64,000 nucleotides of DNA, from the NCBI RefSeq assembly GCF_037975245.1, contig NC_092582.1, positions 9,077,501 to 9,141,500 of the forward strand, in the 5' to 3' direction. The stretch is from Apostichopus japonicus (taxonomy: Eukaryota > Echinodermata > Holothuroidea > Aspidochirotida > Stichopodidae). This document shows positions 577 through 20,493 of the stretch, in pieces (within the stretch, counting starts at the first letter, position 1; each line of letters opens with the position of its first letter). The notes beneath the pieces are model-generated. The model was not told the DNA's origin. It ran no database searches and saw only the letters and a list, made by a program, of their open reading frames with translations. The translations under genes were made by a program, and so were the position numbers.

Positions 577-636
577 AATGTCCCCGTACCTCTTGTCCCG
601 ATGGATATATCTTGAATCAACTAACCTGTGAATGCG
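577..636 (+). CDS. repeat exon 1 of the window
   Basis: Acceptor caacag, donor gtgaga, phase 1-1. Encodes [20 protein letters not shown] with Cys spacing 4-10-1. A TTAA-type MITE ends only 29 bp before the acceptor dinucleotide's end. Confidence 0.8.

Positions 637-20493: not shown

Follow-up and report, generated by a model that had tools for sequence, protein, structure and literature searches.

An array of nineteen cysteine-repeat exons in the sea cucumber Apostichopus japonicus, probably encoding a secreted Balbiani-ring-3-like protein

The window analysed here, a stretch of 64,000 nucleotides on contig C22 (9077501-9141500) of a genome searched in full at 671.58 Mb and 35 contigs, carries an array of short, cysteine-rich repeat exons on its plus strand between positions 577 and 20493. 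The array includes 19 intact exons, of which six fall into one closely related type (A) and two into another (B), and two further type B copies that have been broken. The features of the array and a possible end of the gene are listed below in window coordinates; negative numbers are used for positions upstream of the window.

577-636, plus strand: repeat exon 1, the first visible
1369-1425, plus strand: repeat exon 2
2377-2436, plus strand: repeat exon 3
3344-3400, plus strand: repeat exon 4
3876-3935, plus strand: repeat exon 5, type A
4330-4392, plus strand: repeat exon 6, type B
4866-4925, plus strand: repeat exon 7, type A
5497-5556, plus strand: repeat exon 8, type A
6364-6426, plus strand: repeat exon 9, type B
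6871-6930, plus strand: repeat exon 10, type A
11559-11621, plus strand: type B copy lacking the GT donor (ATACTT at the donor site), a probable pseudo-exon
13468-13527, plus strand: repeat exon 11, type A
14414-14473, plus strand: repeat exon 12, type A
15845-15904, plus strand: repeat exon 13
16042-16104 (limits approximate), plus strand: dead type B copy with a stop codon, the last cysteine lost and no donor
16656-16715, plus strand: repeat exon 14
17022-17081, plus strand: repeat exon 15
17917-17979, plus strand: repeat exon 16
18588-18647, plus strand: repeat exon 17
19722-19781, plus strand: repeat exon 18, net charge +5
20431-20493, plus strand: repeat exon 19
21973-22043, plus strand: weak candidate for a terminal exon, with a phase-1 start, a cysteine-rich sequence and a stop; one of 25 candidates

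All intact exons, whether 57 (two exons), 60 (13 exons) or 63 nt (four exons) in length, share a single layout: the AG acceptor is followed by two bases that belong to a split codon, then by a single C-x(3-5)-C-x(10/11)-C-x-C unit, and a lone base precedes the GT donor. The original prediction of a 19-exon array at 577-20493, with one motif per exon and phase 1-1 throughout, is thereby borne out in every exon, both splice sites included. The split codon had been proposed to supply a residue between cysteines, and it indeed specifies the residue (E, D, G, Q or K) that lies between the last cysteine of one repeat and the first cysteine of the next. The proposed C-x10-C-x-C-x-C motif holds for the 17 exons with x10 between the second and third cysteines, but two exons have x11 in its place. 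The spacing between the first and second cysteines is x4 in 15 exons, x3 in two and x5 in two, and all four motif cysteines are kept in 19 of 19. The visible array has one intron per repeat, and the symmetry of every exon means that the gain, loss or skipping of a repeat leaves the reading frame intact. Spliced in silico, the 19 exons yield an uninterrupted chain of 382 amino acids, 77 of them cysteines, in which the repeats follow one another end to end. This chain is acidic (pI 4.7) and contains no N-glycosylation site; a positive net charge is seen in four of the 19 repeats, namely the 3rd (+2), 16th (+1), 18th (+5) and 19th (+2).

The array is not a chance product. An exon pattern combining the acceptor, the cysteine spacing, the absence of a stop and the GT donor, outside which the two x5 exons fall, matches 17 times in the 64-kb window and never in the visible 95 kb upstream. 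The same pattern is absent from 30 Markov-1 windows, and in 437.6 Mb of order-2 Markov sequence, searched on both strands, it occurs 15 times, which amounts to 0.002 per 64 kb. In the 159 kb of visible sequence, a profile built from the 19 repeats finds exactly 20 places at or above 28.8 bits, and the next place, at 15.0 bits, is the dead copy at about 16042.

The 5,000 bases directly before the window (-4999 to 0) are N, a run of exactly that length which may be either a gap in the assembly or withheld sequence, and at least one exon must be missing upstream because the first visible exon begins inside a codon. A scan for signal-peptide-like exons with a phase-1 donor recovered, within the visible 159 kb, a single plus-strand instance 6.6 kb upstream of the window start (-6632 to -6539) and a minus-strand one at about -98.7 kb. 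We regard the former as no more than a candidate for exon 1, and its link to the array as equally tentative. No convincing further copy of the repeat motif was seen in the 95 kb visible beyond the N stretch. At the other end, the weak candidate for a terminal exon shows no homology to the repeats (2 bits or less with the repeat profile).

The surrounding DNA contains several other features. Upstream, the minus strand has about five long, mutually similar open reading frames between -35604 and -11188, which by eye resemble rhodopsin-type GPCRs, and the plus strand has frames between -50160 and -41068 that by eye resemble HYR domains, the last of them ending in a transmembrane segment. Downstream of the array, the minus strand carries a FAM124-like frame below the Pfam cut-off (42330-43199) and a DHHC palmitoyltransferase frame (62755-63639; PF01529, 2.3e-29), and 44767-45068 is occupied by some 17 tandem copies of an 18-base unit, one frame of which is open and rich in Ser, Gln, Val and Asp.

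With 17 of the 19 repeats as the query, Pfam reports a match to CXCXC (PF03128) at 91.2 bits (E 1.4e-26) in 13 stretches, which exceeds the curated cut-off of 15 bits; this is the only Pfam family listed for them, and a search of solved structures gave no match at E up to 10. Throughout the visible part the repeats constitute the body of the protein, and the repeat region is divided by many introns, as in the BR3 gene of Chironomus, whose 11 kb contain 38 introns and internal repeats that have diverged (PMC4192438). Repeat arrays of this kind, interrupted by many introns, are thus not without precedent. In a survey of VEGFs, most unclassified matches are homologues of the BR3 protein (BR3P), five of 11 sponge matches are BR3P or BR3P-like, and BR3P homologues without a VEGF domain exist, some of them in sponges (PMC10328876). 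In one holothurian, a gene annotated as BAR3 is the most represented one in coelomocyte cluster C12 and has been seen by HCR-FISH in isolated cells (PMC11925454). On the strength of the CXCXC match, the structure of Chironomus BR3, the results of the survey and the holothurian BAR3, we file the array as encoding, with good probability, a secreted BR3P-like repeat protein and not a growth factor. A separate secreted cysteine-repeat protein had been one of the two possibilities raised at the outset, and it is the one favoured by the Pfam match and the known BR3P-like proteins. The supposed unusualness of such an array is weakened by the 38 introns of Chironomus BR3 and the frequency of BR3P homologues in the survey.

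Our analysis shows that tandem duplication of an exon plus its intron enlarged part of this array. The six type A exons (3876, 4866, 5497, 6871, 13468 and 14414) and three type B copies (4330, 6364 and 11559) lie in families of direct repeats that include intron sequence, and since these direct repeats extend into the introns, exon and intron were duplicated as whole units. Two of the 21 copies, those at 11559 and about 16042, have been broken since duplication by the lesions listed above. Both have the letters GATAC at the donor position, so that perhaps one broken copy was itself duplicated. The array intron preceding the copy at 11559 also houses an element (7386-11088) with inverted arms and a reverse-transcriptase fragment (RVT_1, 8.4e-15); the RVT_1 fragment is surrounded by long arms of 475 nt at 98% and by additional ones.

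Comparison of the copies separates what is kept from what changes. Among the type A and among the type B copies, none of 24 cysteine columns is variable as against 26 of 99 other columns (Fisher p = 0.002 pooled; p = 0.012 for type A alone; p = 0.33, not significant, for type B alone), a test that is indicative only, because the copies are related by descent. Divergence between copies amounts to 13.2% in exons versus 18.2% in flanking introns (1541/8477) over 17 of 18 pairs; the pair 4866/5497 was left out as a self-alignment, with 229 identical bases in overlapping flanks, and its inclusion gives 17.7% for the introns. Outside the cysteines, dN/dS between recent copies is 1.32 for type A and 0.73 for type B, and we claim no positive selection for the loops because the codons are so few. 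The cysteine frame, the reading frame and the splice sites are kept, while substitution in the loops proceeds at roughly the pace of the introns, with no evident constraint. Such loops, together with the two broken copies of 21 and the mobile element inside the array, are what might be expected of a dead or dying array, that is, the remains of a BR3P-like gene whose expression has been lost. This is nevertheless unlikely, in view of the preservation of the frame, both splice sites and the four motif cysteines in 19 exons, the invariance of the cysteine columns in the pooled comparison, and an exon divergence that lies below that of the introns.

Searching the genome with the spliced peptide gave at least 34 matches (49 candidates scored), of which 20 are places in the array, namely the 19 intact exons and the copy at 11559, and 14 lie elsewhere. 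The two best E-values among the matches listed belong to C13 and not to the array. Three of the 14 outside matches were read, and they are two minisatellites and one VEGF-type tail exon (C14:17124775). The loci C13:12339413 and C2:27317119 were considered as repeat genes and rejected, being minisatellites with a cysteine-rich unit of about 60 bp that is open in more than one frame. Minisatellites of this sort, here L026 and L028, mimic cysteine-rich proteins and outscore true exons in a tblastn-type search. No second array with one motif per exon was recognised among the three outside matches that were read, all counts being lower bounds. A search with the silk-homology motif had been suggested alongside the original prediction, and it succeeds for the repeats themselves, with the 91.2 bits given above. 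The PF03128 search of the genome, by contrast, yields no match in either the genome or the controls; it misses this array too because the model has 13 positions, and is thus not evidence of absence.

The other possibility raised at the outset was a ligand of the VEGF family bearing a very long processed tail. Such a ligand would have its PDGF/VEGF domain in the unseen 5 kb, and its 19-repeat tail would be cut off or would hold the protein to the matrix. The repeat of the array is that of the VEGF-C tail, which is common to VEGF-C and BR3 (PMC5816233; PMC10328876), the 5 kb of N directly upstream could contain the domain, and repeats of this class do occur in VEGF-type genes of the genome. Against this, a PDGF/VEGF domain was sought upstream, as had been proposed: a pattern search of the 95 kb that are visible beyond the nearest 5 kb of N turned up no convincing PDGF signature, and Pfam assigned no domain to any of the six frames of -9999 to -5000. 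A genome search with PF00341, with the best six candidates scored, gave two matches, both on contig C14 (6.79 and 5.53 Mb) and both confirmed by Pfam as PDGF domains. Taken together, the PDGF pattern, the Pfam searches on both sides and the genome-wide PF00341 search yielded nothing near the array in the visible sequence. Furthermore, the number of repeats in the VEGFs of cnidarians and vertebrates is about three to five (PMC10328876).

The VEGF-type genes on C14 are themselves organised in a different manner. Three VEGF-type tail exons are found there (L013/L014, L020 and L027), each with two motifs, to which L020 adds one more in its last tail exon, and the intron after the tail exon, as read by eye, is in phase 2 in L020 and L027. 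A PDGF exon was found for two of the three genes. The third tail exon, L027 (1024-1356, minus strand; C14:17.12 Mb), has none nearby in the PF00341 genome search with the best six candidates scored, and is called VEGF-type from a 32% pairwise match to L020, whereas the call for L014 comes from its cysteine pattern and from the PDGF exon that lies 1.7 kb upstream of it. Pfam CXCXC matches one of the three tail exons, and no Pfam family was found for L027 and L014. The array exons are not organised like these tail exons, although such organisation is no formal mark of the PDGF/VEGF family. Thus, the ligand reading is not supported by the visible sequence, and we keep it at a low probability on account of the N stretch upstream, the ligand with a cut-off or matrix-holding tail being very unlikely. 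Equally doubtful is the broader version, in which a VEGF-family or other signalling protein would have its N-terminal domain in the unseen 5 kb and a variably spliced 19-repeat tail that would tune binding to and release from the matrix. A larger matrix or mucin-like protein, in which the repeats would form a single region behind other, N-terminal domains, is also very improbable: the N-terminus does fall in unseen sequence, and the array exons have the phase 1-1 typical of shuffled extracellular modules, but Pfam assigns no domain to the six frames of -9999 to -5000 or to the plus frames of 20401-30400.

If the array encodes a BR3P-like protein, as we favour, a signal-peptide exon upstream would route the chain into the secretory pathway, and each repeat would fold as a small disulfide-closed module. 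Neighbouring modules would be joined through the C-x-C-x-C hinge into a stiff, protease-resistant rod, the length of which could vary as symmetric exons are added, removed or skipped with the frame intact. By analogy with the holothurian BAR3, the product may be secreted by a type of coelomocyte as a structural or matrix-associated component, and its function is perhaps that of a disulfide-locked rod of coelomocyte origin. We met no description of the gene among the literature titles and abstract openings listed, in a coverage outside which most subscription journals fall.

The array illustrates clearly how a disulfide-repeat protein expands and contracts one exon at a time: a single gene displays recent duplicates as well as two broken copies, and its cysteines stay constant as its loops change. 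It also bears on the origin of the VEGF-C tail repeat, which in the same genome is present both in an array standing by itself on one contig and, on another, in short tails of the VEGF type. Should it prove to be the counterpart of the holothurian BAR3, from a species that we take to be Holothuria glaberrima, it would provide a coelomocyte-type marker gene in a farmed sea cucumber.

Among the known systems, the holothurian BAR3 has the same annotation and likewise comes from a sea cucumber; this is a comparison by annotation, in which orthology is a guess. The VEGF-type genes on C14 resemble the array in having tails with C-x-C-x-C motifs, and differ from it in having two motifs per tail exon and a phase-2 intron (L020 and L027), where the array has one motif and phase 1-1. 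The silk-homology domain of VEGF-C, VEGF-D and the cnidarian VEGFs has the same cysteine repeat (Pfam CXCXC), but, according to the survey (PMC10328876), as about three to five copies after a PDGF/VEGF domain, versus 19 copies and no such domain seen here. BR3 of Chironomus tentans and the BR3P-like proteins of other animals share with it a body of diverged C-x10-C-x-C-x-C repeats, and the Chironomus gene also has very many introns, whereas the present array belongs to a deuterostome and assigns one repeat to each phase 1-1 exon.
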